This document shows positions 1,794 through 42,456 of a stretch of 42,456 nt of DNA, piece by piece. The position numbers and the translations under genes were made by a program. Below the pieces are notes generated by a model. The model worked only from the letters and a program-made list of their open reading frames with translations. It was not told the origin of the DNA and did not search any database. Every line of letters begins with the position of its first letter. The first letter of the stretch is position 1. The stretch covers positions 1 through 42,456 of IMG/VR virus record IMGVR_UViG_3300017697_000030. One strand, written 5' to 3'. Origin of the DNA: a virus.

Positions 1794-3425
1794 TTAAAGC
1801 CAAGAAGCCGCCAAGATTTTCATGCGGTTGCCCTGAGTGTCTTGGATATAACGGGCTATCTCCCTGGCCTTTTCGATATCTTCTACAACGCTTGAGTGTT
1901 GTTCAAAGTAGTGCACATACACTTCATCTGCCTCTTGACCTACCCGGTGCGTGCGGCCTATGAGCTGCTCCAGTGTCGAGCCGTTGGGTAGGAAAGCGGT
2001 CAGCAAGTTTCGAGACCAGCGCTGCAGGTTCTTACCCGTGCCATGTGCTTTGACGGACATAGCGCAGTGGTGGGCGGGCTTGTCGGGTATGTCTTGTCCA
2101 GCACCGTAGGTAGTTAATCCCTCGTCTCTGAACTTCTGTAGCACCGCTTTGTGCTCACACCACACGATGGTAGGTGTCTCCGCTTGGTCGAGGAACTCTC
2201 TAACTCGGCTAATGAGATACTCGTTTATCCATACAGTACGCACGGGCGGGGCTGGTCTGTGTCTCACCTGAGCCCAGTCGTGCCAGGCTTGCACGAGCAC
2301 TCTGTCGGGGCAGCTGTCTTGCTGTGCCCACATGGCGACGAGCAGCGGGCTGTCTCTCCCTTCTCGGGACCTGCTGAGTACTCTCCTGACCTGTCGGTGC
2401 CAGTGAGCTCTGGCTTCTAACCACTGATAATCAGGTTCGCCGTTAGGCCAGACCCACTCGTAGTAGAACCCGCAGAGTAGCTGTCGGCGATAGCGCGCCA
2501 TGCTCAGGGCGTCTTCGATCTCTTCTCCACTGGGCGTGCACCAGTTGTTCTTGAGGTCGTTGAGTGCTCTTCTCACGTCCGCTGGTAGGGACAGGTCTTC
2601 CTTCTTCATGTAGATAGACGCGCCCGAAGAGACTTCTTGAGTCAGCGTCACTCCTGGGCACGTCTCGAGTCTGCGAAAGAAAGCTTGTCGGGCGGTGCCG
2701 CTGTACTGCATCGTCAGGGGGGAGAACCTTTGGCGCTCGTAGAGGTCTGCTTCTCCGCCGACATCTATGTTTGCTGCCCACACTTGCAGCTCCCAGAAGT
2801 CGAGGGGCACAGGAGCTCTCTCGCGCAAGGCCAGCTCCACGAGATGAGCATAGTCAGCCAAGCCCTTAGAAGTGAAGGTGCCGCTAAGACCCACGAACTT
2901 AGTCGACGGGTTGTTCTGGAAGTAGCGGATGACTCTCTTAGTGCGTGCCGCCGTGCGGTGTCGGAGGTGGTGGCACTCGTCGGCTATGATCAAGTCGGGT
3001 TTGTACTGCTCTAATAAACGAGAACCTGACGCTACCGATAGCTTGCCGTAGCTGAGCACTCTCAGCCCGGGGTGTATGCGGAAGTGGTCTCGGAACTTGT
3101 CGAGCTCTTTCCTCGTCTGGTTTACCAGCGAAGGAGGGACCAGCAGCAGCGGGCGTTCAGAGCGGAGAGCTGTGGGGGCAAGAGCGCTGATAAGGAACTT
3201 CCCGTGGCCCACGCCGATGGGTGCAACGAGACCGTTGCATTGTTGTAGCTCGTACAGAGCCTCGCTCTGGATAGGGCGAAGCGAGTACCTACCATTTGGT
3301 AGGGAGTACTTGTCTGTCTGGTCTGGTGCGTTCCCTTGTCTCGTCGGGAGGGCAAGGACGCGTCGCACTCCGGGCATGTGCTCAGCGGGGGCTCTCCTCT
3401 GGCGGAGACTTTCGAGAGTGCTCAC
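1794..3425 (-). CDS. SNF2-like superfamily 2 DNA helicase
   Basis: 543-residue ATP-dependent DNA helicase or translocase. Motif I is PIGVGHGK (69-76), motif II DECH (149-152), motif III SGTFT (181-185) and motif VI QLIGRTHRVGQ (from about 487), the last typical of SNF2 proteins. SNF2-like helicases commonly sit beside phage polymerases and probably act in replication or recombination. The GTG at 3425 is chosen because it overlaps the previous stop as GTGA and is preceded by GGGGAA; the ATG 72 nt upstream lies inside the neighbouring gene. The Walker A ends in K-F rather than K-T/S, a departure from the usual motif. Confidence 0.9.
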   Translation of the reverse strand: MSTLESLRQRRAPAEHMPGVRRVLALPTRQGNAPDQTDKYSLPNGRYSLRPIQSEALYELQQCNGLVAPIGVGHGKFLISALAPTALRSERPLLLVPPSLVNQTRKELDKFRDHFRIHPGLRVLSYGKLSVASGSRLLEQYKPDLIIADECHHLRHRTAARTKRVIRYFQNNPSTKFVGLSGTFTSKGLADYAHLVELALRERAPVPLDFWELQVWAANIDVGGEADLYERQRFSPLTMQYSGTARQAFFRRLETCPGVTLTQEVSSGASIYMKKEDLSLPADVRRALNDLKNNWCTPSGEEIEDALSMARYRRQLLCGFYYEWVWPNGEPDYQWLEARAHWHRQVRRVLSRSREGRDSPLLVAMWAQQDSCPDRVLVQAWHDWAQVRHRPAPPVRTVWINEYLISRVREFLDQAETPTIVWCEHKAVLQKFRDEGLTTYGAGQDIPDKPAHHCAMSVKAHGTGKNLQRWSRNLLTAFLPNGSTLEQLIGRTHRVGQEADEVYVHYFEQHSSVVEDIEKAREIARYIQDTQGNRMKILAASWL

Positions 3426-3968: not shown

Positions 3969-5603
3969 CTACCTGATGCCCTGAATCACGGAGTCTGCTG
4001 CTTGTACAAGCACAGTCTTACATGCCGCCCAGTAAGGGTTGTCGGAACTAACCAACACGTATCCCTTGAGGCTGCTGACCCGCAGAAGGCCAGCGACGTG
4101 ACTCTTACCTTCTCCGTATTGCATCTGGAGAGGTGTGGCCACCTTGTTGTTCTCGGCCACCTTAGCTACCAGCGGGTAGATGAGGTCCTCGAACGACACT
4201 GCGCCTTTGATTCCCTTTACGGGAAGGCAGTCGATGTAGACCGTGAGGCCTGCTGTCTGCTTAGCTGGCTCCTCCTCGAGGATGACAGGCTTGGGATCTG
4301 GAGCTTTCTCCTTCTTCTTCTCTTCCTTCTTCCTCTGAGCAATGATGTCCTCCGAGGGGCGGCTCTCGCCAGTCTCGTGGTTATACGAGCCTCTGTGGGT
4401 GGGGAGTGCTGACGCTCGAACAACGGAGCCATCCGAGTAGCTCAGCGTACCGTCGGAGAAACGACAGGCCTTCTCGACGTAGTAGAGACGGACACGTCGA
4501 AGGTCAAGCACCTTGCCTACGATGGTCTTCGCAGCAACCTTGCCTATGCGCTGGATGTTACGGTCTCGCATGTGGGCCAGCAGCGCCTTGGCTGCTTCGT
4601 CATATGCCACGGAAGAGAAGTTATCCTTCGAGGGAACGGGCTCTGTGAAGGCCTCTGTAGATGGGGCTGCCTCCACTACCTCGACGGCCTCCACTACCTC
4701 GACGGCCTCGACGGCCTCGACAGTGCGAGAGGCGGTGTCCTCGGACAAGACACCCGTGGGCACGGACGTCCCGTTCGTGGGAGCTGGTGCTGCGTTGTTC
4801 GCCTTCTTTCTATTCCTAAGTTCTTGGAGTCTGCTCATGTTCGTTTCCTTCCTTTCTTCCGGTTTCTTATTTCCGACTTCTGATATTCCTGCAAACGGGT
4901 TCATCTCTACAGCCCCCAGTGCAGCGCAGGTGTCTGCAAAAGGGCAGCCTCCGAAAGCTCCGCAGGCAGAGAGGGTCGGAGGAACCTCCTCTACCGAGTC
5001 CAGGTAGGACGTCTGCTTCATCTCAGTGGCTAAGGCTACGAGCTTAGCCCACTGTTCTTCTACGTGTTCCCGAGTCAACTCTACGGATACCAAGCGGCTC
5101 TCGGGAGCGCCCTTAGTCTTCAGCTGAATATGTGCAACGATTACCTCGTTAGCTTCTGTGTGCTGCTCTAACGCGTACTGAGCGTAGGCAATCATCTGGG
5201 GGTCTGTTCCCAGCTGCTCTTCCGTCTTTGCCCACTTCCATGCGGAGGTGGTCTTGTAGTCGACGACTACGGGGCAGCTGGGGTCCATCGTATCGTAGAG
5301 GTCTATGAACCCAACCAAGGGCGGGTCGATAGACTCCATGCGAAGCGAGAGCTCCACATGAAGGTCCGTAGATGTGGGGATGTACTCGATAGCCGTGCGA
5401 GCTATGCGGCCCTCACGTGTGTCAGGTATCTCCGTGCCCTTCGAGACATAGTCTTCGAGCAACTCGTGGACGGTAGAGCCCAGCAACATGGCCGCGGACG
5501 GCTCAGGTCGGGGGGCATCGGTGCACTTTTCGATGTACCACTTGCGTTTGCAGAGGCTGTACGTCTTAAACTGAGAGGCGCTGACGTGTTCTATAGTACT
5601 CAT
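3969..5603 (-). CDS. Cas4/RecB-like PD-(D/E)XK exonuclease with long C-terminal extension
   Basis: 544 residues. The N-terminal ~240 are a Cas4/RecB-type nuclease: SASQFKTYSLCKRKW with C18, LGSTVHELLE with H46, GFIDLYD with D101 and VVVDYKTTS with D115 and K117. C214, C220 and C226 can join C18 in a 4Fe-4S cluster as in Cas4/AddB enzymes. Residues 256-544 form a separate region beginning MSRLQELRNRKK, with a Val-Glu-Ala repeat (about 290-310) from tandem short DNA repeats, a Lys/Glu-rich linker and a final domain of unknown fold. Cas4-like nucleases make DNA ends for phage recombination or replication. A strong internal RBS at 4846 suggests the C-terminal part is also made alone. The start lacks a canonical SD and is preceded by GTACCCAC. 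Confidence 0.85.
   Translation of the reverse strand: MSTIEHVSASQFKTYSLCKRKWYIEKCTDAPRPEPSAAMLLGSTVHELLEDYVSKGTEIPDTREGRIARTAIEYIPTSTDLHVELSLRMESIDPPLVGFIDLYDTMDPSCPVVVDYKTTSAWKWAKTEEQLGTDPQMIAYAQYALEQHTEANEVIVAHIQLKTKGAPESRLVSVELTREHVEEQWAKLVALATEMKQTSYLDSVEEVPPTLSACGAFGGCPFADTCAALGAVEMNPFAGISEVGNKKPEERKETNMSRLQELRNRKKANNAAPAPTNGTSVPTGVLSEDTASRTVEAVEAVEVVEAVEVVEAAPSTEAFTEPVPSKDNFSSVAYDEAAKALLAHMRDRNIQRIGKVAAKTIVGKVLDLRRVRLYYVEKACRFSDGTLSYSDGSVVRASALPTHRGSYNHETGESRPSEDIIAQRKKEEKKKEKAPDPKPVILEEEPAKQTAGLTVYIDCLPVKGIKGAVSFEDLIYPLVAKVAENNKVATPLQMQYGEGKSHVAGLLRVSSLKGYVLVSSDNPYWAACKTVLVQAADSVIQGIR
4836..4853 (-). promoter_or_regulatory. Internal ribosome-binding site and ATG inside the nuclease gene
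   Basis: AGGAAGGA (4846-4853) lies 7 nt before an in-frame ATG (4836-4838) that encodes residue M256, exactly where the nuclease domain ends. It would yield a 289-residue C-terminal protein in the same frame. This SD is stronger than the one at the full-length start. Confidence 0.55.
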
Positions 5604-5612
5604 GTGGGTACT

Positions 5613-7817
5613 TTAATCTTCTGACATCCGCGCGTCAAGCCTAATAACCTTATCTAATGTGTCTATGTGCGCGCTTCCGCTCTCCGGGTCTTCGTAAGAG
5701 CGTCCCTCGGGCAGTGGTATTCCTGGCTTCACCCACTCCCTAATCCTAATGCCGTTTTTCTGTCGGCGGTTTAGGGGGGCTGCTCCGCACTGGACCAGCA
5801 ACCTACTCACCCGGTTAGTCGAGACCGTCAGGTTTCCGAGAGCCTTCGTACACGCATCGGAGATAGTGAAGATGTTGTCCCCCTTGCGCCCCAGCCAGTT
5901 GGCCAGGACGCTCAAGTAAGGGTCCTCGTTAGTGAACCTATCCTCCGCGATCTTTCGCTGTTCCGCTTCCATGGCTCGAGTCTGATGCCACTGCTCTCCT
6001 GCTCGGAAAGCCTCGACAGCCTCGGCCCATAGCTGCGAGCGGTTTCTCTTCAACCACTCAAGGTTTGTGTACTGGGTGACCTCGACAGGCCAGTACCGGC
6101 GTGAGCCCGACGGGTCTGTCAGAGGTCGGTCCTCGTTGGATGTAGCCACGATCACTGTGTGCCGCGGGAACTGCTGGACTGTCCGCTTATATGGCGGGCG
6201 ATACAGGTCAACCGGCGAGGAGATAAATCCCTTTACCTTCTCGGCGTAGGACTTCTTGAAGGACGCGAGCTCTGCGACTTCGTAGATCCAAGCACGAGCA
6301 AGGCCCATGAACGCGTCTTTGTTATTCAGGTTTAGCTCGGTGTCGTCGAACCACTCGGGGCCTGCCAGCTCCCTAAGGATAGTTGACTTGCCAAGACCCT
6401 GGCGTCCTATGAGCATGAGAACAGTGTCGACCTTACAGCCGGGGCGATAAGCACGAGCAACACAGGAGATGAGAAACTTGCGAGCGACGTCCCTGTAGTA
6501 GTCGGACTCCTCGCAGCCTATGCCTTTCTCCATCCAGGTGTCTGCTCTGTTGATGCCGTCCCACTGCAGGGAGTCAAGCCATTCTACGAGAGGATTGCGT
6601 TTATTCTCGCAACAGATAAGCTCGATAACATCGAACATCATCTGCCTGTTCGGCTCGAAGTTGTAGTGAGAGCCTATCCACTTACGAAGATCGAACGTGT
6701 CCTCGTCGCGATAGACACGGTCATCCCGCATGTTCACAAAGGAACGCTCGTTAAACCAGAAGCGACCCTGCCATCGAGTGTCGACTGTTAGGATGTGGTA
6801 CGTGTTGAACAGGTTGTTCCTGAAGTTACCGTCCCTGTTGGTTTGAAGAACACTGACGACAGCGGCCTGCTGCATCGGAGGAACGAACTCCCCGTCCCAA
6901 TAAGTGTGTCCGTCCTGCGCCGATGTGCACACAAGGTACGGCTGGCCGATGTCATTGCGCGAGACGAACGCGCTATCTGTGCTGCTGCCCTCATGGAAGG
7001 GGCACTGCAGTCGGACACGATGGCCGTCTTCTCCGAGCTCTGCGTCCACTAAATCACGCAGCGTCGTGTAGCCCTGCTCAGTCCAGTTATCGAGGAGGGC
7101 TACCTCCGAGAAGTTAGGGCGACGGGCGGGGCCTGCTGTGTTGATCCCCGCGAAGGGGCTGCTTTGATCCCAAGAAGACTCGGGGCCTGCTGACGAAGAG
7201 CCCGTGGCCCGGTCGAAGACAACAGCGGGGATGTCGTCGGGCACGCGGTAAAGAGGACCTCCGCTGTGCGTTACGCGAACCTCGACAGGCTGGCCCTTGT
7301 TATTAAAAGAACCAGGGGGCCTGAGCAGGCGTGTGCCTGCATCCGATGCGGACGTGTCTGCAAGAGCATAGCCAGCCGCGGTATTCACAGAGTGGATTAA
7401 CCACCGCGCAGCTAAGTTCATACGAGGGATGTCGCCGCCGCCACACTCCGTCCAGAAGTAGACGTGGTATCCGTAGCCGCTCATCACAACAACGGTAGGG
7501 GTGAGCTCCGCTCGCTCTAACATCTGGCTAAGCTCTTCCCAGTGCTCGGCGAGCAGGTCGTCTACCTCTTCTCGAGGAGACTCCGTCAGTATTCCTTTGA
7601 GCTCTCGAACACCCGGAGAGTCCGAGCCCAGCTGGTGGTGCAGGTAATCGACAGCGTCGAAGTCCATGGCAAGCACAGGGCAGCGGACTAAGTCGTCTTT
7701 CGTATGCGTAGGGGAACCGACGGGGAATAGACCCGTGGTTATATAGTCCTCCCCGTTGTGGGAACGGGAGGAGTACTCCGTCCCTTCGTCTGCGGGAGGG
7801 AGATGTGGGTACGACAT
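5613..7817 (-). CDS. Primase-helicase: Prim-Pol domain fused to VirE/D5-like ATPase
   Basis: 734 residues, the likely replication initiator and primase-helicase. The N-terminal half resembles an archaeo-eukaryotic Prim-Pol: MDFDAVD gives metal ligands D52 and D54, SGYGYHVYF (113-121) the conserved S..G.H strand, and GTRLLRPPGSFNNKG (161-175) a nucleotide-binding block. A possible zinc site follows (C272, H275, C297, H304). The C-terminal half is a VirE/SF3-type ATPase with Walker A GRQGLGKST (471-479), an acidic Walker B-like YEVAE and VIVATSNED followed by GSRRYWPVEV, the usual sensor/arginine segment. GAGG lies 7 nt before the ATG. It faces the origin-like region and is the first gene of the leftward block. 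Confidence 0.88.
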   Translation of the reverse strand: MSYPHLPPADEGTEYSSRSHNGEDYITTGLFPVGSPTHTKDDLVRCPVLAMDFDAVDYLHHQLGSDSPGVRELKGILTESPREEVDDLLAEHWEELSQMLERAELTPTVVVMSGYGYHVYFWTECGGGDIPRMNLAARWLIHSVNTAAGYALADTSASDAGTRLLRPPGSFNNKGQPVEVRVTHSGGPLYRVPDDIPAVVFDRATGSSSAGPESSWDQSSPFAGINTAGPARRPNFSEVALLDNWTEQGYTTLRDLVDAELGEDGHRVRLQCPFHEGSSTDSAFVSRNDIGQPYLVCTSAQDGHTYWDGEFVPPMQQAAVVSVLQTNRDGNFRNNLFNTYHILTVDTRWQGRFWFNERSFVNMRDDRVYRDEDTFDLRKWIGSHYNFEPNRQMMFDVIELICCENKRNPLVEWLDSLQWDGINRADTWMEKGIGCEESDYYRDVARKFLISCVARAYRPGCKVDTVLMLIGRQGLGKSTILRELAGPEWFDDTELNLNNKDAFMGLARAWIYEVAELASFKKSYAEKVKGFISSPVDLYRPPYKRTVQQFPRHTVIVATSNEDRPLTDPSGSRRYWPVEVTQYTNLEWLKRNRSQLWAEAVEAFRAGEQWHQTRAMEAEQRKIAEDRFTNEDPYLSVLANWLGRKGDNIFTISDACTKALGNLTVSTNRVSRLLVQCGAAPLNRRQKNGIRIREWVKPGIPLPEGRSYEDPESGSAHIDTLDKVIRLDARMSED

Positions 7818-8014
7818 GGAGGAACCTCAAGAGCGGCGTTGAGAAGGAGGTAGTAGTGTAGGGCACGCGCCTGAGCAGGGCAGGGTAAAGCCAGGGGACA
7901 CCTCTGCCCCCCGGCAACCCTACACCAACTCCCTCTCTCCGAAGTTGCCCTCAAAGACAGGTCGGTCGTGTTCGAGGACACTATCGGAGAGCGTCTCTCA
8001 ACGCAAGAGAAAAT

Positions 8015-8030
8015 ACACTAAATGTAGTGC
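8015..8030. promoter_or_regulatory. NrdR-box-like palindrome
   Basis: ACACTAAATGTAGTGC agrees at 13 of 16 positions with the published NrdR box acaCwAtATaTwGwgt. It lies about 200 bp upstream of the primase-helicase start and is one of at least five related sites in the window. Confidence 0.55.
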
Positions 8031-8336
8031 TTACCCTGGGGTACCCATGTGGTTATGGATAACTCGGCAGTAGGGCCCTCCTATATGCATACAAGCCAGA
8101 GCAGTGCAGCGATTAGAGCAGAGACCAAGAAGACACAGGCGCTCTTCGAGAAGAACAGAGGAAACACAGGGTACCTCACATCTTCTTTACAAGATTCAGA
8201 GCGACGTCTTTACAAGTCAAGAAAGATTAGTGAAAAACCAGGAGAATAAGAAAATCACTAAAAAATAAGAGCCCAAAGGTTTGTTGCTGAACAGCACGAT
8301 AAACACTAAAATCTATTGTATCGTCAACAGCAAATC

Positions 8337-8345
8337 TGTGGAAAA
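8337..8345 (-). promoter_or_regulatory. DnaA-box-like 9-mer
   Basis: TTTTCCACA read leftward fits the DnaA box TTWTNCACA. A weaker variant, TTATCCATA, is at 8054-8062. Chance matches to a 9-mer are common; the value lies in its position beside the repeat cluster. A partial NrdR-like site (CCCTACATGTGT, 8346-8357) directly abuts it. Confidence 0.4.
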
Positions 8346-8372
8346 CCCTACATGTGTATCAGATGTACGAAT

Positions 8373-8403
8373 CTGCCCAGCACTTTTTTTCTGTGCCGGG
8401 CAG
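8373..8403. repeat. Inverted repeat with T-rich loop
   Basis: CTGCCCAGCAC and GTGCCGGGCAG (one mismatch) flank a 9-nt T-rich loop. The arms belong to the CTGCCC(A/G)G family that fills 8373-8762. Read rightward, no T tract follows the second arm, so it is not a classical terminator. Confidence 0.5.
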
Positions 8404-8526
8404 CGACATTCCAGGTTTAAGCCCAGCTATGAAAGGCGCTGCCCATTACTGAACAGGTGTTCATTTGGCCCTGCCGGGCAGCGATATGATAGGTTTAAGC
8501 CCGGATGTGAGACTCTCTGCCCGGGC
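8395..8526. repeat. Two ~50-bp imperfect direct repeats
   Basis: Copy A starts at 8395 and copy B at 8473. Each begins GCCGGGCAGCGA, has AGGTTTAAGCCC about 9-10 bp on and ends in CTGCCC, so each can also form a hairpin through GGGCAGCG/CGCTGCCC-type arms. A looser third copy is at 8640-8698. Iteron-like protein-binding sites are the likeliest reading. Confidence 0.6.
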
Positions 8527-8657
8527 TGCCCAGCACTTTTCAACCAACAATCTATACTGACCGGAGTATTTAAATAGAGCAGAGCAGCTAATAGTTTATT
8601 TTATTTACTCCCGCCATATACTATAGACGAACGCTTTGTGCCGGGCAGCCCGGGCAG
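8517..8657. repeat. 20-bp inverted repeat flanking a 101-bp AT-rich core
   Basis: The left arm CTGCCCGGGCTGCCCAGCAC (8517-8536) and right arm (8638-8657) are inverted copies with a single mismatch. The interior (8537-8637) is visibly AT-rich, with runs such as GTTTATTTTATTTA, amid GC-rich surroundings. The shape suggests an unwinding element bracketed by initiator sites, but a small mobile remnant cannot be excluded. Confidence 0.65.
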
Positions 8658-8771
8658 CGGCTCGAAACACGTAGGTGCAAGCTGGGTTTTCGCTGCCCAG
8701 CAGAGCAGTAAAGCGTTTAGCTTATTAACCTGGTTCTACCTGGGCATCCACTGCCCGGGCACATTCTTTCC

Positions 8772-8800
8772 TTGACAGGATACCCTACATGTAGTACCTT
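8772..8800 (+). promoter_or_regulatory. Promoter with palindromic operator in its spacer
   Basis: Perfect -35 TTGACA (8772-8777), 17-bp spacer, -10-like TACCTT (8795-8800). The spacer holds the palindrome CTACATGTAG (8785-8794), part of the NrdR-box-like element, so a bound protein would block RNA polymerase. It should drive the zinc-ribbon/DUF927 operon starting at 8853. Confidence 0.65.
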
Positions 8801-8852
8801 CTACCCATGAGCACAATCAAAGCCTTCTTCCTCCCACAAGAGAGGTCCGACC

Positions 8853-9095
8853 ATGTACTGTCCTAAGTGCAACACCAACACACGGGTCCTCTCCTCCCGC
8901 CGACACGATCACCCGCGCGGATGCTTAGCCGCCCGGCTCGCCAGGGAAGCCGCGTCCTGGTTCACGATGGACTGGGTATCTCGGGAGCGTAAGTGCAAGA
9001 ACCCCGAGTGCGACTGGCGCGGAGCCACGATCGAGCTCCTCACGGAAGACCTGACCGCCGGCTGGCGGGCACGATACGCACGCCGGAACAAATGA
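8853..9095 (+). CDS. Small zinc-ribbon regulator, Ogr/Delta- or NrdR-like
   Basis: 80 residues beginning MYCPKCNTNTRVLSSRR, with a second knuckle CKNPEC (C48, C53) followed by DWRGATIEL. The Cx2C...Cx4C layout and the SR after the first knuckle match the Ogr/Delta phage activators (CPxC, xRxSR, CQNxNC). The same region also resembles the N-terminal zinc ribbon of NrdR, but there is no ATP-cone domain. It is therefore probably a DNA-binding transcription regulator. GAGAGG lies 7 nt before the ATG, and the gene overlaps the DUF927 gene as ATGA. Its own promoter carries a palindromic operator, so autoregulation is plausible. Confidence 0.65.
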   Translation: MYCPKCNTNTRVLSSRRHDHPRGCLAARLAREAASWFTMDWVSRERKCKNPECDWRGATIELLTEDLTAGWRARYARRNK

Positions 9096-10564
9096 GCGAG
9101 CTGCTCCCCTACCCGCCGGACATGTCCGCACTACCGGAGGCTAAGCACTGGGGCTGGACCGATGACCGCTGCCTCCAGTACCTGCACCCCGACGGCTACC
9201 TCACCGCTACCGGACTACCTCTCGAGTACCGACCACCCTCCCCGGGCCCCCGGAACACGACCGTTAAACACGCCGGCGGCGAGTACAACCGCTCCACCCA
9301 GGCGGGCACATGGGAGGGCTGGTTAGAGGCGGCGCACGTGGCGGCGGATTACCCGCATGCTTACAGCGCTCTCTACACGTCGATCGCCTCGCTCCTCCTG
9401 CCCATACTCGAAGTCGACAACTTCGGGATGGAGCTCTGTTCCATGACGAGCACGGGCAAGACCACTGCCCTTCACTTAGCGATGTCCGCCTGGGGAGACT
9501 ACTACGACCTATACTCCTGCTGGGGCGACGGAGCGAGCCACCTCTACAAAGAGAGCTGCCAGGGCAGCGTACCCCGGACTCGCGACGAGGCTCAGCTCGC
9601 AACAACCAAGTCTCTCAAGAACTGGGTCTACAGCGTATCCGCTGGCCGGTTCGGCTCTTCGCGTTGGCGCAGCACCTTCTTCTCCGCGGGCGAGACCCCT
9701 GCCGGAGACCGGACCAAGATGCCCGGTATCTACGCTCGGGTAGTTTCCCTACGCGGTCCGCCCTTCGGGCACGACACAGCCCGCGGCGGCGAGGCAGCGG
9801 AAGAGGTGAATCAGATCTGCCGTTACCACTACGGGCACTTGTCCGTTCGGATGGCAAGCTACATGGTCGAGTACCACGACCGTCTATACCCAGCGCTAAA
9901 GGCCGCTTTCATCGGACGGTTTAACGAGCTGGTGCAGCGGCAATCCTCGGGCGCTTTCCGGCGGCACGCCCGCTACCTCGCGGCGATCCACGTGGCCGGT
10001 GACCTGGCTCACTCCCTCGGGCTACCGAGACCGCGGAGCTCCCTGTCCCCGCCGGACCTCCTGTACCGCAGCGCTGTGGACTGCTCGGGATGCGCCGACC
10101 TCCCCCGCAGGGCATTCGTACACATGTGCTTGTTCCTTAGAAGCAGGCAGGAGAACTTCCTCCAGCAGACCGTCGAGGGCTACACATCCCACACAGCGCT
10201 GCGCTTCGATTACCCGACGGAAGATCTTGCTGGTATCTGGGACTACGACAACCCATCCTGGCAGAGACTCTCCGTACTCCGCGGGTTTCTACACAGGAAC
10301 AAGGCTTCCCTGTACACATGGCAGGCGCGATACACAGACACCTGGGAAGCTCGGGGCTACATCATCTCGGGCACGGCCCGCCACCTGAAGGCCGCAAAGA
10401 AGCTGCACCTCGCTAATCAGAATAGGAGGCAGCACACCTTCGCGGTTACACGGTCGCCGGTGCTGAACCTCTCGGGATTCCACGTGCAACGGGAGGAATA
10501 CGAGCGAGCGTTAGAGGAGGCTCCCACCACCCACCCCGTCCTTTCAGCGCAGTACCCGAGCTGA
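9092..10564 (+). CDS. DUF927-type ATPase (putative helicase)
   Basis: 490 residues. GTWEGWLEA and FGMELCSMTSTGKTTALHLA, with Walker A around G122-K123-T124-T125, then MSAWGD, reproduce the DUF927 core. RDEAQ (164-168) may supply the acidic Walker B residues, and GETPAGDRTKMPGIYARVV a later ATPase segment. DUF927 proteins are plasmid- and phage-associated helicase-like ATPases. The ATG at 9092 overlaps the upstream stop. Codon use looks more GC-rich at third positions than in the leftward replication genes, which could mean separate acquisition. It lies across the candidate origin from the primase-helicase, so the phage carries two replication-type ATPases in divergent orientation. Confidence 0.8.
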   Translation: MSELLPYPPDMSALPEAKHWGWTDDRCLQYLHPDGYLTATGLPLEYRPPSPGPRNTTVKHAGGEYNRSTQAGTWEGWLEAAHVAADYPHAYSALYTSIASLLLPILEVDNFGMELCSMTSTGKTTALHLAMSAWGDYYDLYSCWGDGASHLYKESCQGSVPRTRDEAQLATTKSLKNWVYSVSAGRFGSSRWRSTFFSAGETPAGDRTKMPGIYARVVSLRGPPFGHDTARGGEAAEEVNQICRYHYGHLSVRMASYMVEYHDRLYPALKAAFIGRFNELVQRQSSGAFRRHARYLAAIHVAGDLAHSLGLPRPRSSLSPPDLLYRSAVDCSGCADLPRRAFVHMCLFLRSRQENFLQQTVEGYTSHTALRFDYPTEDLAGIWDYDNPSWQRLSVLRGFLHRNKASLYTWQARYTDTWEARGYIISGTARHLKAAKKLHLANQNRRQHTFAVTRSPVLNLSGFHVQREEYERALEEAPTTHPVLSAQYPS

Positions 10565-13859: not shown

Positions 13860-13887
13860 AGTGTAACAGGTCCTACATGTAGTGCAA
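13860..13887 (-). promoter_or_regulatory. Promoter with NrdR-box-like spacer for the 13759 operon
   Basis: Leftward TTGCAC (13882-13887), 16-bp spacer, TACACT (13860-13865). The spacer contains CTACATGTAG. The -35 and palindrome are shared with the promoters at 15843-15871 and 16142-16170. Confidence 0.6.
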
Positions 13888-15800: not shown

Positions 15801-15842
15801 TGATTGACTCCGTTAATCGTCGAGAGGATACCCGACCTATTT

Positions 15843-15871
15843 AAAATAACAGAACCCTACATATAGTGCAA
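15843..15871 (-). promoter_or_regulatory. NrdR-box-like promoter for the GP88 operon
   Basis: Leftward TTGCAC (15866-15871), 17-bp spacer, TATTTT (15843-15848). Overlapping it, GCACTATATGTAGGGT matches the NrdR box at 13 of 16 positions and is identical to the element at 16144-16159. Confidence 0.65.
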
Positions 15872-15957
15872 GCTCTAATGATATTAAAATAAACCAGCGG
15901 CTCTCTGCCCGTGTTATCTTTTCCCTTGCGCCGGCCTCCGCTCTGCTATAGGCTATG

Positions 15958-16047
15958 GCCTGAGTGATTGACTCCGCTCAACCGGCCCGGTGCTCAACCG
16001 GGTTAGCTCCGGTGCAGTCTCCCCGATTGCACCGGAGCTTTTATTTT
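15958..16047 (+). ncRNA. Candidate small RNA antisense to the shared RBS leader
   Basis: A locus of about 90 nt. Upstream is an extended -10 (TG-C-TATAGG, 15944-15952) with TTGCGC 15 bp before it. The 5' stem TGAG/CTCA (15961-15980) presents a 12-nt loop, TGATTGACTCCG, the exact antisense of CGGAGTCAATCA at the GP88 start. It also pairs over 9-11 nt with the ribosome-binding sites at 16223, 17726, 18762, 19601 and 13759. A CCCGG/CCGGG hairpin and a strong terminator follow. Alternative: the opposite strand is a decayed gene leader (CGGAGTCAATC without a gene). Transcription is not shown. Confidence 0.45.
16006..16047 (+). terminator. Strong intrinsic terminator
   Basis: Perfect 11-bp stem GCTCCGGTGCA/TGCACCGGAGC (16006-16016, 16028-16038), 11-nt loop, then TTTTATTTT. 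No protein gene lies upstream on this strand, so it must end a non-coding transcript or block read-through. Confidence 0.85.
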
Positions 16048-16141
16048 ACCGGACACCGGAGACTCCTCTTTAAAGAGCGACCGCTGACCGCTGACCGCTT
16101 GTCAATAAATGTAACTATTTTATTTTAGTGTATTTTATTTA

Positions 16142-16170
16142 TTGCACTATATGTAGGGTTGTGTTACTGT
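16142..16170 (+). promoter_or_regulatory. NrdR-box-like promoter for the 16223 operon
   Basis: TTGCAC (16142-16147), 17-bp spacer, TACTGT (16165-16170). GCACTATATGTAGGGT (16144-16159) overlaps the -35 and spacer. Confidence 0.65.
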
Positions 16171-16222
16171 CACTATGTGACGTACACAAAGCGCGTCGCA
16201 TCCATACAACGGAGTCAATCTA
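16169..16222 (+). promoter_or_regulatory. Structured 5' leader, shared with 19602-19650
   Basis: GTCAC-TAT-GTGACG hairpin, then CGCGTCGCA and ACGGAGTCAATC before the ATG. The leader of the 19601 gene has the same blocks in the same order (GTCAC-GGA-GTGACG, CGCGTCGCA, ACGGAGTCAACC). GACG/CGTC can form a second stem in both. Confidence 0.55.
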
Positions 16223-16920: not shown

Positions 16921-17132
16921 TGCCTAACTTTATCGACTATTCTAATCCGATTACTGAGGAACCCGAGTCGGATGCTGACCGCTTGCTACGCGCTATGCGA
17001 GAGCACCGCCGGGACTACATGAACGGGCGCCTGGATTCGCTGACCTGGATTCGCGCTCGCCGCATGATTATCCGGGAAGCTGAATACCTCGGGGTAACCG
17101 ATGATATCATCCGCAAGTTAAGCCAGTCCTAA
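16920..17132 (+). CDS. Hypothetical protein
   Basis: 70 residues (MPNFIDYSNPITEEPESDADRLLRAM...), charged and helical. The ATG at 16920 overlaps the upstream TAA stop, with GGAG 9 nt before it; a GTG at 16905 is possible but less well placed. Last gene of the operon. No family recognised. Confidence 0.6.
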   Translation: MPNFIDYSNPITEEPESDADRLLRAMREHRRDYMNGRLDSLTWIRARRMIIREAEYLGVTDDIIRKLSQS

Positions 17133-17170
17133 CCGCTCCGCTCACCGGACCGTCGGCCCGTCGCTTCTAC

Positions 17171-17193
17171 CCCGGAGCGCCGGGCTTTCCTTT
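17171..17193 (+). terminator. Weak terminator-like hairpin after the 16223 operon
   Basis: CCCGG-AGCG-CCGGG followed by CTTTCCTTT. A larger pairing with CGCTCCG at about 17134 is possible. Confidence 0.4.
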
Positions 17194-17267
17194 ACCCCGG
17201 ACACCGGACCTCTCCCTTACCCCGGACACCGGACCTCTCCCTTAGTACACACCGGACACCGGACCTC
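17192..17267. repeat. 25-bp tandem repeats with CCGGACACCGGA core
   Basis: Two exact 25-bp copies (17192-17216 and 17217-17241) and a degenerate third (to 17267). Each contains CCGGACACCGGA, at 17197, 17222 and 17252. The same 12-mer occurs at 14600 and 16049. Confidence 0.8.
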
Positions 17268-17361
17268 GAGATAATCTCGCAAGCTCGTGAACTTTTCACC
17301 AGACATAGGAATGCCCCCCGCACCTATCGGCACGGGGGGCGGCGTCTCTATCGACTCGCGG

Positions 17362-25183: not shown

Positions 25184-26148
25184 CATTCCTCCTCATCTAC
25201 GGGGGGACCGTAATAGTCTTCGTGGTTTGGGTCGTAACCAGGATGACCGGTGACGTTGATGACGCCTTCTCCTGCATCCATGAAGACTGACCCGTCGTCA
25301 AACTCAATCACCTCCACCCCATCAAACGCGCGGCTGGCGACTTCGTCGTAGTTATCTCGCGCGTTATCGAAGTCTTCGGCTGATGCTTCGTAGACTTCTT
25401 CGTCTGTTAAGTCTTGTCCCTCGTAGGGTCCGGCAGTGTGCGCGTAGCCAACAGCGTCGCCTTGTTTATTCTGCCGCTCGTCTTCTCTGGCCTCGGCTTC
25501 TTCGCGCATATACTGGTAGAACGGAGTGTTTAGCGCAGCCAGCTCCATCGCATCCGCGTGACTAAAGAAACTGCCTATAGCGCTTGCCTGTTGCTTCGTC
25601 AGTTGTGGGTATGCTTCAGGGGCCTGGGCTTCGCGTCTTTGTCTGTCTATTTCTTCGGCAGCGTCTCTCATGGTCCCGCTAAGCCTCTCCATCGGCACGA
25701 ATACTTCGCGGGTGTCTCCTTCGTCGGCGTCTACTTGAAACAGGACGCCCTTCCCGGGAACGATGTCGCTGATGTCGCGTATTGTTCGGGTACCGTAGTC
25801 AGTCGCGACTGTGTACTTGCTGATGTCCGACTCCTCTCCCCCGATAAGATACGGCGTTCTGTTCCCTCCTCGTACCTGGGTGCCTCCGAGTCGGTAGGGT
25901 ACGTCCGCTTCCTTTGCCGGCTCTACTTCGAAAGAGCCTAAGCTGACTCGTGCTTTTGGGATCTTGCCAGCTTCGACGTCGGTTAATATCTGCCGTTGCA
26001 CGTCCGACAAGTCCGGGACTTCAACAACGGGCGCCGGCTGTTGTGCCGTGCGTCTCGCTTTATCGAGTGCTTCCTGCGCAGAGGGTCCTCGCCGCTCACC
26101 GGGCGCTGCCCCTGCTGGACCCTCGTACATTTGGTCTAAAGAACCCAC
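25183..26148 (-). CDS. Hypothetical head-cluster protein
   Basis: 321 residues, acidic, low-complexity at the N-terminus, with a strand-rich centre (ARVSLGSFEVEP, RTPYLIGGEESD) and an acidic tail ending VDEEE. No family recognised. GTG start overlapping the portal stop (TAGTG), with GGAAGG before it. The position directly after the portal suggests a head or portal accessory role; no protease motif was found. Confidence 0.6.
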   Translation of the reverse strand: MGSLDQMYEGPAGAAPGERRGPSAQEALDKARRTAQQPAPVVEVPDLSDVQRQILTDVEAGKIPKARVSLGSFEVEPAKEADVPYRLGGTQVRGGNRTPYLIGGEESDISKYTVATDYGTRTIRDISDIVPGKGVLFQVDADEGDTREVFVPMERLSGTMRDAAEEIDRQRREAQAPEAYPQLTKQQASAIGSFFSHADAMELAALNTPFYQYMREEAEAREDERQNKQGDAVGYAHTAGPYEGQDLTDEEVYEASAEDFDNARDNYDEVASRAFDGVEVIEFDDGSVFMDAGEGVINVTGHPGYDPNHEDYYGPPVDEEE

Positions 26149-27875
26149 TATCCTTCCTCTCGGATGGGCGAGTCACCGCCTGCTGCCATGCTGTCTTCTG
26201 GGGCTGCCGGCTGAGCCTCTCCACCGCCCCCGCCCATTAGGGCTACGAGCTCTGGTGGTAGGCCGCCTTCTGCTCCCATCGGCGGGCCGCCCCCGCCCGG
26301 TGCGCCTGCTCCGCCCATCGCAAGCTGCTGCGCCATCTGGGCTTCTGCTTGCGCGGCCATTGCCACATCTTCCTCGGGCATGAGAAGTCCCATCGGGAGA
26401 CCGATGCCCTTCACGATCTCCTCGGTCAGGCGTCGACCGTCGACATTCGGGTCTTGCTGGAGCAGCGGGATGAGCTGAAGCAGTGTCTCTACCATGACTG
26501 CTGGGTTGGTCTTGATGGGGTTGTAGCTAACCATCTCGAAGTCTACTTCGACATCAGCGATGGTGGAGATGTCTACCGCGGCCCACTTTCGGTTGCCTGC
26601 GATACGGATCATCTTTTCGCCCTTCATGTACTTACGGCACAGGTAGAAGCACTTTGCAGCCATGTCTTCCATGGCGTCGTTGATGTGTCCTTCTCGCGTG
26701 GCCAGACGGTTCTTCATCTGGGCATCGATGATCGCCATTTCCGTAGCGGTTCGAGCTCCGACCACTTGCCCGCGAGCAGCTTCAGCCAGCGCCGAGATGA
26801 ACGCGGCGTCGTCTTCTTGCCGGGCTACGAAATCTTTCACGCCCTGCGGGTTCTGCGGGTAGGGCATCTCGTAGAACAAAGATCCCAGTGATCGCAGTGC
26901 TTCGGAGTTTTGCGGGGCGATGCCCACGAAAGATCCGGCTGATGCGGCTACTGCCTTGTTTAGATCTTCCTCACTAATGCGCCCGGCGTCGTAGAGGACT
27001 CTGGGAATCATAAGATAGGTGATACGCTTCATATGCGTAAGCAGATCGTTAACCGTCTCTTGCTGGGTCAAGACAAGCTGTACTTCGCTCAGCCCCAGAC
27101 AGTCCACGCCTGACTGGTTGAGGCTGAACATGGAGTAGGGGATGTAGTCAATGTCGTCTTCGAACACGACCTTGTCGAGCTGCCTAACGTAGTGCTTGAC
27201 CTTGTTGGTCTCTCGATCGTAGTACTCCCAGACTGTGATCCACTCGAAGGCGTCGCGAACGGCGTTGGTTTCACCGCGCTGCTTCGAGCCGAGCATCCAC
27301 TTCGGGAAGCGATCTGGCTGAACATCGTCCAGCTTCGCGTCGTAACGACCAGACTCCACACGGGCTTTGAACTCGGAGAAGGGGACGACGGTGGCTTCGA
27401 GCCAGTACTTAATGTCGTCAACGTCGCGCACAGTAAGATCGAAGAACACCGTAGAGGGATCGCAGACCTTCACTACGGGCCTATCTTCTGTCTTGTTCCA
27501 GCTGGTCTTGAAGATGCCTCGCTTACAGAGAACAGCGTCGATCAACGCTGTTGCTGCGCGTCTCCGCATGCGGTTGGAGCGGAAGACGTACTCGAGAAGT
27601 CCTGTTACGGACGGCGACTGGTCCTGGCTACGGGCGTTGCGCGGGTTAGCTGCCACCTGGGGGTTGGGTCCCAGAAGAGCAGAAACCGCAGTATCTGCGA
27701 TAGCATAGATAAGATTCTTAGAACACAGGTGAAGGTTCGTGTTCGTGTCGAGGTCCGTAGACCGCTGCGTCCAAAAGTCTCCCCGGTAGTACCGACGGGC
27801 CTTGTCGAAGATCTCCTTCTCCTGGCCCTTGTAGAACTCCAGGTGGCGATCGATAAGAACGGAAAGCTTAGGCAT
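26148..27875 (-). CDS. Portal protein
   Basis: 575 residues. The early region RYYRGDFWTQRSTDLDTNTNL by segments, the strand-rich middle (VVKVCDPSTVFFDLTVRDVDDIKYW), and the helical QQETVNDLLTHMKRITYLMIPRVLY followed by ATEMAIIDAQMKNRL are typical of phage portals, the dodecameric ring for DNA entry. The last ~70 residues are Gly/Ala/Met-rich and probably flexible. It follows TerL with one small gene between, the usual order. AGGAT precedes the ATG. Confidence 0.9.
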   Translation of the reverse strand: MPKLSVLIDRHLEFYKGQEKEIFDKARRYYRGDFWTQRSTDLDTNTNLHLCSKNLIYAIADTAVSALLGPNPQVAANPRNARSQDQSPSVTGLLEYVFRSNRMRRRAATALIDAVLCKRGIFKTSWNKTEDRPVVKVCDPSTVFFDLTVRDVDDIKYWLEATVVPFSEFKARVESGRYDAKLDDVQPDRFPKWMLGSKQRGETNAVRDAFEWITVWEYYDRETNKVKHYVRQLDKVVFEDDIDYIPYSMFSLNQSGVDCLGLSEVQLVLTQQETVNDLLTHMKRITYLMIPRVLYDAGRISEEDLNKAVAASAGSFVGIAPQNSEALRSLGSLFYEMPYPQNPQGVKDFVARQEDDAAFISALAEAARGQVVGARTATEMAIIDAQMKNRLATREGHINDAMEDMAAKCFYLCRKYMKGEKMIRIAGNRKWAAVDISTIADVEVDFEMVSYNPIKTNPAVMVETLLQLIPLLQQDPNVDGRRLTEEIVKGIGLPMGLLMPEEDVAMAAQAEAQMAQQLAMGGAGAPGGGGPPMGAEGGLPPELVALMGGGGGEAQPAAPEDSMAAGGDSPIREEG

Positions 27876-28042: not shown

Positions 28043-29680
28043 TTACATCCAGTTCCTCGGGGGAGGCTTAAAGAGGTTTCCTGCTTCTTTAGTAGACTTG
28101 CGCTTGTAGCGGTCCAAGTCTCCTATAGTCAGCTGCCCAGCAGGGCGCTGGTCTATTTCCGGTTGGATATTAGCGCGTGTGAAGTGTCTGCGCGAGAGAA
28201 TGTCCGCCGCCATGATAGCCGTTCGGGCACGGTCGAAGTGATGCGTGGTACCGTCTTGGCCTTTTACGCGCTTATTATTAGTGCCGTCGTAGTTAACGAG
28301 TTGGTGCAACATGCCTCGGGAGATGATGTCTATCTCTTCTTCTCGCAGTAGCTGGACGAGCATCGCTTCTGCTTCCTGAATCCTCTTGGAGGTGGCGTAC
28401 CATCCGGGGTGGTTCCGATTCGTCCACAAGAGGCTCGGGCACTTCTTGTCTTTAAGAATGGCAATACAGGCCATAGCGTTGGACTCTACGGCTATTAGAG
28501 CTCCGTTGTAGTGTCCTTGCACCCGCATTAGTCTTGCGGCAAACCGTCCAGGGTCTTCTCGATCTTCCCAGAAAGCTACCTCTTTTCTTGTAACAGCGTC
28601 CCAGACAGTCAGCGCGCTCTTATCTCCAGAGCGACCGTAGCCCGCGGGGTCAGCCGTAATCAGGTAGGAGCTGTTGTTTTCTGGCATGTCTATGACGCAA
28701 CAACCCAGCGGGCCCTCAGGGGGATCTGGCTGAGACTTCGCCAGCAGCGGCTTTAAGACGTCAGCGGGCATGACGGGTGCGAGAGAGCCTAGCCAGCCAT
28801 CATACGGGTCGGAAGGGTACTTTGCGCAGAATAGCCGGGAGTCTCCTACGAACTCTGTGTTCAGAGCGCTGCGTCTGAAGGCCATGTTCTGAAGAGTCAT
28901 GCCGTCGTGCTGCGACATGTAGGTCTCTTCTTCAGAAGTGATGTCGGAGAGCGGAGCCTCTATGGCACAGCTGTTGTCCTTCCACCAGCTAAGAAACACG
29001 GGGTTGAAGCGACTCTTTCCCTCCAAGGCCATCTGCCACATGCGCTCGTGGTGCGAGCCTGCACGGCCAGGCGTCGACTCCAGTATGACGCGGGCATTGG
29101 GTCTCTTATTGACTGTCGGGAAGATATTGATAGCGGCCTTCTGCTGCCACTGTGCCTCACCAAACTCGGTGATGACGAGACGGTCGATCGAGCGACCGAT
29201 GGCTGGAGAGCGTCCGCCGGCTGTGAGGACCTTGATTCCTCCGCCGTGGCAGAAGTGCATCTGCGTAGTTCCTGCCTTCCTTCCCTTAGCCAGGGGCACG
29301 CGGACGTCGTCGGGGAGTCTTTTATAGGCGTATAAGATACGCTCGAAGATGTCTTCGGCTGTGTCTTGACGCTCTGCGATAAGCAGCCCCTTGACTCCTT
29401 CGAGGTACATGCAGTCGCGCAGCAGGAGCATGACGGAGATTGTGGTAATCTTCGCCTGGCGGAACTTGTTGACTATGTTCCAGCGATGTTCGTGATACGC
29501 GGCGATTAGCTGTTGCTGTGTGCTGGTAGGGGTCAAGAAACCGCTGGACTCGTCTTCTCTGACAATCTGACACATCGACACGAAGGCGTCGTAGGTAGCG
29601 AACATCGCCCGCACCTTGGACTGATTTAGTGATGCGTGTTGCGTGAGCTTTGCGCCATTCGGAAGGGCTTTTAAATCCAT
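28043..29680 (-). CDS. Terminase large subunit
   Basis: 545 residues: the packaging ATPase and nuclease. Residues 72-79 (KFRQAKIT) occupy the Walker A place but lack the usual GKS/T; VITEFGE (169-174) is Walker B with catalytic E172; LESTP (200-204) is the coupling motif. The RNase H-like nuclease has D344 (ITADPAGYG), E399 (VESNA) and D483 (HFDRARTAIM). It heads the leftward head operon. AAGG lies 7 nt before the ATG, with GTACCCAC between, a sequence also present before the 5603 start. Confidence 0.92.
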   Translation of the reverse strand: MDLKALPNGAKLTQHASLNQSKVRAMFATYDAFVSMCQIVREDESSGFLTPTSTQQQLIAAYHEHRWNIVNKFRQAKITTISVMLLLRDCMYLEGVKGLLIAERQDTAEDIFERILYAYKRLPDDVRVPLAKGRKAGTTQMHFCHGGGIKVLTAGGRSPAIGRSIDRLVITEFGEAQWQQKAAINIFPTVNKRPNARVILESTPGRAGSHHERMWQMALEGKSRFNPVFLSWWKDNSCAIEAPLSDITSEEETYMSQHDGMTLQNMAFRRSALNTEFVGDSRLFCAKYPSDPYDGWLGSLAPVMPADVLKPLLAKSQPDPPEGPLGCCVIDMPENNSSYLITADPAGYGRSGDKSALTVWDAVTRKEVAFWEDREDPGRFAARLMRVQGHYNGALIAVESNAMACIAILKDKKCPSLLWTNRNHPGWYATSKRIQEAEAMLVQLLREEEIDIISRGMLHQLVNYDGTNNKRVKGQDGTTHHFDRARTAIMAADILSRRHFTRANIQPEIDQRPAGQLTIGDLDRYKRKSTKEAGNLFKPPPRNWM

Positions 29681-42109: not shown

Positions 42110-42456
42110 ATGGACGAGGAAACGACAGACGAGGGCGGGGCAACGGCAGGGGCAGGGGCAACGGATGCCGCGGAGCTCCTTGACTTTTGGGACGATGTTC
42201 CCCTTTACGAAGATACGTCTGACACTGTCGATCCGTCTGTCGGTACGGACACGCCTGTCGACCCGCCTGCCACCGCTCCTGTCGACCCGCCTGCCGATAG
42301 GCGCGCGCCCGCCGCTCGACCTTCTGGCCAAGCAACAGGCGGACGATCGCTTCCTTCGCAGCCTGCCGCTCCTGCCGCCGAGCCTGCCGCCGCCGCCGCT
42401 CCTGCCGCCGAGCCTGCCGCCGCCGCCGCTCCTGCCGCCGAGCCTGCCGCCGCCGC
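42110..42456 (+). CDS. Acidic repeat-rich protein (C-terminus beyond window)
   Basis: The first 115 codons of a gene starting MDEETTDEGG, with GGAGG 7 nt before the ATG. Includes LLDFWDDVPLYED and DTPVDPP/APVDPP repeats, then tandem Ala-Pro-Ala-Ala-Glu-Pro decapeptides running into the edge. Low-complexity linker of a probably large virion protein; identity unknown. Confidence 0.65.
   Translation, partial: MDEETTDEGGATAGAGATDAAELLDFWDDVPLYEDTSDTVDPSVGTDTPVDPPATAPVDPPADRRAPAARPSGQATGGRSLPSQPAAPAAEPAAAAAPAAEPAAAAAPAAEPAAA
42368..42456 (+). repeat. 30-bp in-frame tandem repeat at window edge
   Basis: Three copies (the last missing one base) of a 30-bp unit starting GCTCCTGCCGCCGAGCCTGC at 42368, 42398 and 42428, encoding APAAEPAAAA. 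The array reaches the window end, so copy number is unknown. Confidence 0.9.

Follow-up and report, generated by a model that had tools for sequence, protein, structure and literature searches.

The window, the whole 42,456-nucleotide stretch of viral DNA analysed here, is a linear IMG/VR fragment whose two ends cut through a family-A DNA polymerase gene (PolA, 3-1208) and an ORF, respectively. The record has matches to a terminase large subunit (28043-29680) and a portal protein (26148-27875). PICI satellites are without a terminase large subunit and portal of their own; since both genes are present here, the record represents a phage and not a satellite.

A 1035-bp gap (7818-8852) separates a VapE-type helicase gene on the minus strand from a plus-strand pair consisting of a small zinc-ribbon-like ORF and a DUF927 helicase gene, whose start codon overlaps the stop codon of the ORF. 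The initial annotation had described a gene-free kilobase at this place, and indeed the only ORFs in the gap are two small ones, of 98 and 66 aa, for which a PHROG search gave no significant match. An Rfam search returned two matches, both far below the gathering scores, and no RNA family fits. The features of the locus are as follows.

5613-7817, minus strand: VapE-type helicase, proposed initiator (Pfam PF05272, E=1.1e-77)
8018-8027: palindrome copy with one mismatch (CTAAATGTAG), VapE side of the gap
8337-8345, minus strand: DnaA-box-like TTTTCCACA, one mismatch, not above chance
8373-8762: putative replication origin, ten iterons CTGCCC(A/G)G(C/G), often followed by AC, around an AT-rich core
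8373-8381, plus strand: outer iteron CTGCCCAGC, VapE side; matches position 5980 of the relative L168, with GGCAGATTCG identical
8398-8444: 47-bp module 1, GGGCAGCG ... CGCTGCCC, divergent, CTGCC centres 40 bp apart
8476-8522: 47-bp module 2, ending in TCTGCCC
8517-8536, plus strand: left arm, two tandem iterons CTGCCCGGG and CTGCCCAGC, then AC
8537-8637: AT-rich core of low GC with zero iteron sites, proposed unwinding element
8638-8657, minus strand: right arm, two tandem iterons CTGCCCGGG and CTGCCCGGC, then AC, on the minus strand
8652-8698: 47-bp module 3, across the AT-rich core from modules 1 and 2
8751-8759, plus strand: outer iteron CTGCCCGGG, DUF927 side, its end 13 bp short of a TTGACA hexamer
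8785-8794: palindrome CTACATGTAG, probable operator, within the spacer of what may be a promoter for the DUF927 side (TTGACA at 8773-8778)
8853-9095, plus strand: small zinc-ribbon-like ORF, 80 aa (weak NrdR zinc ribbon, below cut-off)
9092-10564, plus strand: DUF927 helicase (Pfam PF06048, E=5.2e-11)

The VapE protein matched PDB 7pds (title 'The structure of PriRep1 with dsDNA', protein name 'Similar to D. nodosus vapE') using phmmer (E=2.8e-42) and Foldseek (E=3.6e-25), and its more distant Foldseek matches include the SaPI5 primase-helicase (7ola). By homology, the gene next to the array is predicted to encode a Rep-type self-loading helicase. Confidence in its AlphaFold model is high from roughly residue 312 to the end. 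Over the final 120 residues the model has helix-helix-strand-helix-helix followed by four short strands, an order which, read by eye, is that expected of a winged-helix-like C-terminal domain. Because the N-terminal half was modelled with low confidence, the primase assignment rests on the motifs LAMDFD and SGYGYH, which by eye resemble those of archaeo-eukaryotic primases, and on a weak PHROG primase match (E=0.0019). The DUF927 protein matched PDB 8tch, a 'Pathogenicity island protein' (E=8.3e-14).

Iterons and the AT-rich core

A 20-bp inverted repeat with one mismatch and a spacing of 101 bp had been noted in the gap, and it withstood a shuffle test. The arms, CTGCCCGGGCTGCCCAGCAC at 8517-8536 and GTGCCGGGCAGCCCGGGCAG at 8638-8657, are complementary at 19 of 20 positions and separated by 101 nt, whereas inverted repeats found under the same conditions (at most one mismatch, same span limit as observed) in 300 dinucleotide shuffles of the gap did not exceed 16 bp. 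Each arm consists of two tandem 9-mers CTGCCC(A/G)G(C/G) followed by AC. The arms are four of ten iterons, not a stand-alone inverted repeat, and the iteron-like repeats reported nearby turned out to be stronger than claimed, as they also make up the arms. Within 385 bp (8373-8759) there are ten copies of CTGCCC or GGGCAG, in both orientations; none of 1000 shuffles of the gap had more than four, and no other stretch of equal length in the record does. Multiple copies of a short iteron are clustered in noncoding DNA here, as in SaPI/PICI-type iteron origins.

The sites are regularly spaced. Three divergent pairs, GGGCAGCG ... CGCTGCCC, span 47 bp each, and position 8587 is the symmetry centre of the six innermost sites. 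A 51-nt stretch from 8472, at module 2, is 78% identical to its counterpart in module 1.

The DNA between the arms is AT-rich, as the initial annotation had it. The GC content is 50-60% over most of the record and 35% in the 100-bp interval 8532-8631, which ranks sixth among the AT-richest separate intervals of the record. It is 30% in the 70-bp minimum at 8537-8606, which has six iteron sites to its left, four to its right and none inside.

A DnaA-box-like 9-mer is present at 8337-8345 as had been reported, but with at most one mismatch allowed the record has 18 such boxes where chance predicts 14, and no counterpart is visible at the corresponding position in L168. The DnaA box was therefore rejected, and a role of host DnaA is unsupported. 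The detrended cumulative GC skew of this fragment has its maximum at 7898 and its minimum at 26,423, and its sign largely tracks the gene strand, with C-rich third codon positions. A minimum at 26.4 kb speaks against an origin at the array, though gene strand confounds the skew. We dropped GC skew as an origin test because it largely follows the gene strand and the record is incomplete.

The gap also contains a palindrome, CTACATGTAG, which with at most one mismatch occurs seven times in the record versus 0.66 expected; none of 100 shuffles reached seven. Five of the seven copies are intergenic (8018-8027, 8785-8794, 13873-13882, 15857-15866 and 16147-16156), and those at 8785, 15857 and 16147 lie, as read by eye, within the spacer of a possible sigma-70 promoter. 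The copies look like the operator set of a phage regulator, and the one at 8785-8794 is probably a regulator operator separate from the iterons. The divergent gap 15801-16222 carries a 37-nt inverted repeat (84%; 15835-15871 and 16142-16178), the halves of which are mirror-image promoter-like segments each holding this palindrome. Two other repeats were seen in the record: CACCGGA occurs five times in the gap 16921-17286, more than in shuffles, and 30-bp tandem repeats (GCCGCTCCTGCCGCCGAGCCTGCCGCCGCC) occupy 42365-42456 inside an ORF, where they are cut by the record end.

Comparison with other VapE loci

Searches of IMG/VR for close relatives with the single proteins VapE and DUF927 and with one module pattern returned nothing. 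One diverged relative, the 56-kb record L168, was found through the neighbouring DEAD/ResIII-type helicase gene, and a search with a two-sequence VapE alignment returned L168 only. Its PolA, helicase and exonuclease are 71%, 64% and 50% identical to those of the window, and its VapE is 57-58% identical over the whole length. Directly upstream of VapE, L168 has 11 CTGCC-type sites with the consensus CTGCCAAGCAC; the exact iteron occurs five times in the 56-kb record, every copy within the cluster. The array surrounds an AT-rich core with 13% GC in its 70-bp minimum, and the 39-40 bp spacing of divergent sites is found there too. When both loci were placed in VapE orientation with one offset, 6 of the 10 window sites superposed on L168 sites (within 2 bp, orientation kept), a result equalled in 4 of 20,000 random placements. 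In each locus, two divergent pairs separate the core from VapE and a third lies upstream of the core. The exact strings of at least 9 nt common to both are AAATAAAATAAA, 12 nt in the core (minus strand, 8595-8606 in the window), and GGCAGATTCG at the outer site. The layout is conserved and the iteron sequence has changed.

No DUF927 relative was detected in the L168 record. Because L168 keeps the array all the same, VapE is the constant partner of the array. An L168 ORF at 5430-5663, which also borders the array, is weakly similar to the zinc-ribbon-like ORF of the window (E=1e-5). The two have opposite orientations, so this gene appears to have turned round with respect to the array.

With a generic VapE alignment, 160 distant loci were retrieved, on phages as well as on bacterial contigs; they served only for a neighbourhood statistic. 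Among noncoding gaps, with near-duplicates removed, 25 of 48 directly downstream of VapE were iteron-positive versus 7 of 212 other gaps (Fisher 1e-15). This enrichment supports a general link between VapE and iterons, located downstream as in SaPIs. Upstream of VapE, 1 of 17 deduplicated gaps was positive, and that one was L168. A very ordered iteron array was seen in the gap downstream of the VapE gene of locus L045, where 3143-3386 carries TGGGACA 12 times in a regular pattern. That iterons flank the AT minimum as a general rule of VapE loci was rejected, since this was so in 15 of 27 cases against 13.8 expected.

L228 and L229, two relatives with a more divergent VapE (36% identical), also belong to the PolA/VapE lineage; they were selected by eye after the gap statistic. 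L228 has four exact copies of AGAGATAMACAC upstream of VapE, three on one side and one on the other side of a core with 23% GC. L229 has CGACAC eight times upstream of VapE, once before and seven times after the AT minimum. Like SaPI/PICI-type origins, the window, L168, L228 and L229 all have two iteron sets flanking an AT-rich region.

Alternative readings of the array

The initial annotation had called the inverted repeat a likely origin element. This is still the best-supported reading, given iterons around an AT-rich core, an adjacent gene for a SaPI-Rep-type helicase and a layout conserved in L168. The iterons might instead be operators of a regulator for the divergent vapE and zinc-ribbon/DUF927 operons. 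They do lie between divergent genes, the outermost site stops just short of the TTGACA hexamer, and many origin proteins also autoregulate. However, the palindrome CTACATGTAG, distinct from the iterons, suits that role at the two ends of the gap as well as in other intergenic gaps, and ten sites in 385 bp around an AT-rich core, in regularly spaced pairs, are an excess for promoter control. Moreover, L168 keeps the array though its far-side gene is oriented oppositely, and repeat arrays recur beside VapE genes of unrelated phages. We consider that the array is unlikely to be a set of operators. It is quite unlikely, too, that the array is an origin whose iterons are bound by the DUF927 helicase, as a protein of the SaPIbov1-Rep/Cch type. 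SaPIbov1 Rep, a replication initiator that loads itself, is a DUF927 protein (PMC7581432), and the DUF927 protein of the window matches 8tch and is encoded by an operon that starts beside the array; yet the array is conserved in L168 with no detectable DUF927 relative in that record, and VapE adjoins it in both.

Arrays of inverted sites are also known at centromeres and packaging sites, so a partition (centromere-like) or packaging/recombination site bound in arrays was considered. We regard this as very unlikely: the conserved neighbour is a replicative-type helicase, no partition gene was found among the proteins scanned, which were part of the ORFs, and the terminase and portal genes lie more than 17 kb from the array. 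A long inverted repeat in noncoding DNA might also have entered the gap as a mobile or selfish repeat, and the initial annotation had named recurrence of the unit at unrelated loci, as a mobile element, as a point against an origin. No such recurrence was found: the unit is present once in the record, and a search of 50,697 phage records for a DNA match to the window found none. One module pattern had no exact match in IMG/VR, and the layout is kept at the same place in the diverged relative L168, all of which makes an inserted repeat extremely improbable.

A candidate phage origin

On architecture, conservation and homology, an origin is the most likely function of the array. More specifically, the element is very probably the replication origin of the phage, an iteron origin of the SaPI/PICI type at which the VapE helicase would open the DNA. 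VapE is favoured as the initiator over the other flanking helicase, the DUF927 protein. We infer a scheme in which VapE subunits would bind the 9-bp iterons through their winged-helix-like C-terminal domain, and oligomers would assemble on either side, collected by the tandem iterons of the arms and by the three modules, in each of which divergent sites are paired at a distance of about 40 bp. Between the two iteron sets, the 101-bp AT-rich core would then melt and VapE hexamers would load on the opened strands. Synthesis might be started by the primase part of VapE or by another factor, and the phage's own family-A polymerase would elongate. It is also conceivable, though rather unlikely, that this is one origin with two initiator-type helicases, the VapE primase-helicase and the DUF927 helicase flanking a single array; each might load on its own side of the core, or the two might load at different times during infection.

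At SaPI and PICI origins, iterons flank an AT-rich melting region and are recognised by Rep (PMC6092414, PMC7581432). Like these origins, the array consists of short iterons in both orientations, placed as two sets with an AT-rich core between them; the gene adjoining it is a homolog of the solved PriRep helicase (7pds), and the other flanking gene carries DUF927, like SaPIbov1 Rep. Against an origin of the SaPI/PICI kind, the array lies upstream of vapE in both the window and L168 and not immediately 3', whereas SaPI/PICI origins are downstream of rep. Also unlike those origins, the array contains modules of divergent sites paired at about 40 bp and has a gene of each helicase family at its flanks, and the record carries a terminase and a portal, which makes it a phage and not a satellite.

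The putative origin of SCCmec Cch2 has three 5-nt iterons downstream of the gene (PMC7581432). Like Cch2, VapE is proposed to be a self-loading-type helicase with a C-terminal dsDNA-binding domain recognising repeats beside its own gene, but here there are ten 9-mers, in both orientations, upstream of it. In tailed phages such as Corynebacterium phage StAB (L003, 5315-5620), a VapE-type helicase gene likewise has an adjoining iteron-rich noncoding gap; there the array is downstream of vapE, and the iterons (GTTGTTCCA) are different. The alpha protein of phage P4, with ori/crr, and the plasmid pRN1 (the subject of PMC4234260) provide primase-helicase fusion initiators that act at their own origins, as is proposed for VapE; P4 differs in using two separate elements. 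A literature search found no paper dedicated to the Sfi21 phage origin.

On this reading, a SaPI/PICI-style origin would be placed in a tailed phage that is not a satellite. Iteron arrays beside VapE-type genes in many phage and bacterial contigs suggest that such arrays go with the helicase family and are not peculiar to satellites. With its site map conserved and its iteron changed, the pair formed by the window and L168 would offer a natural experiment on the code by which these helicases recognise DNA.
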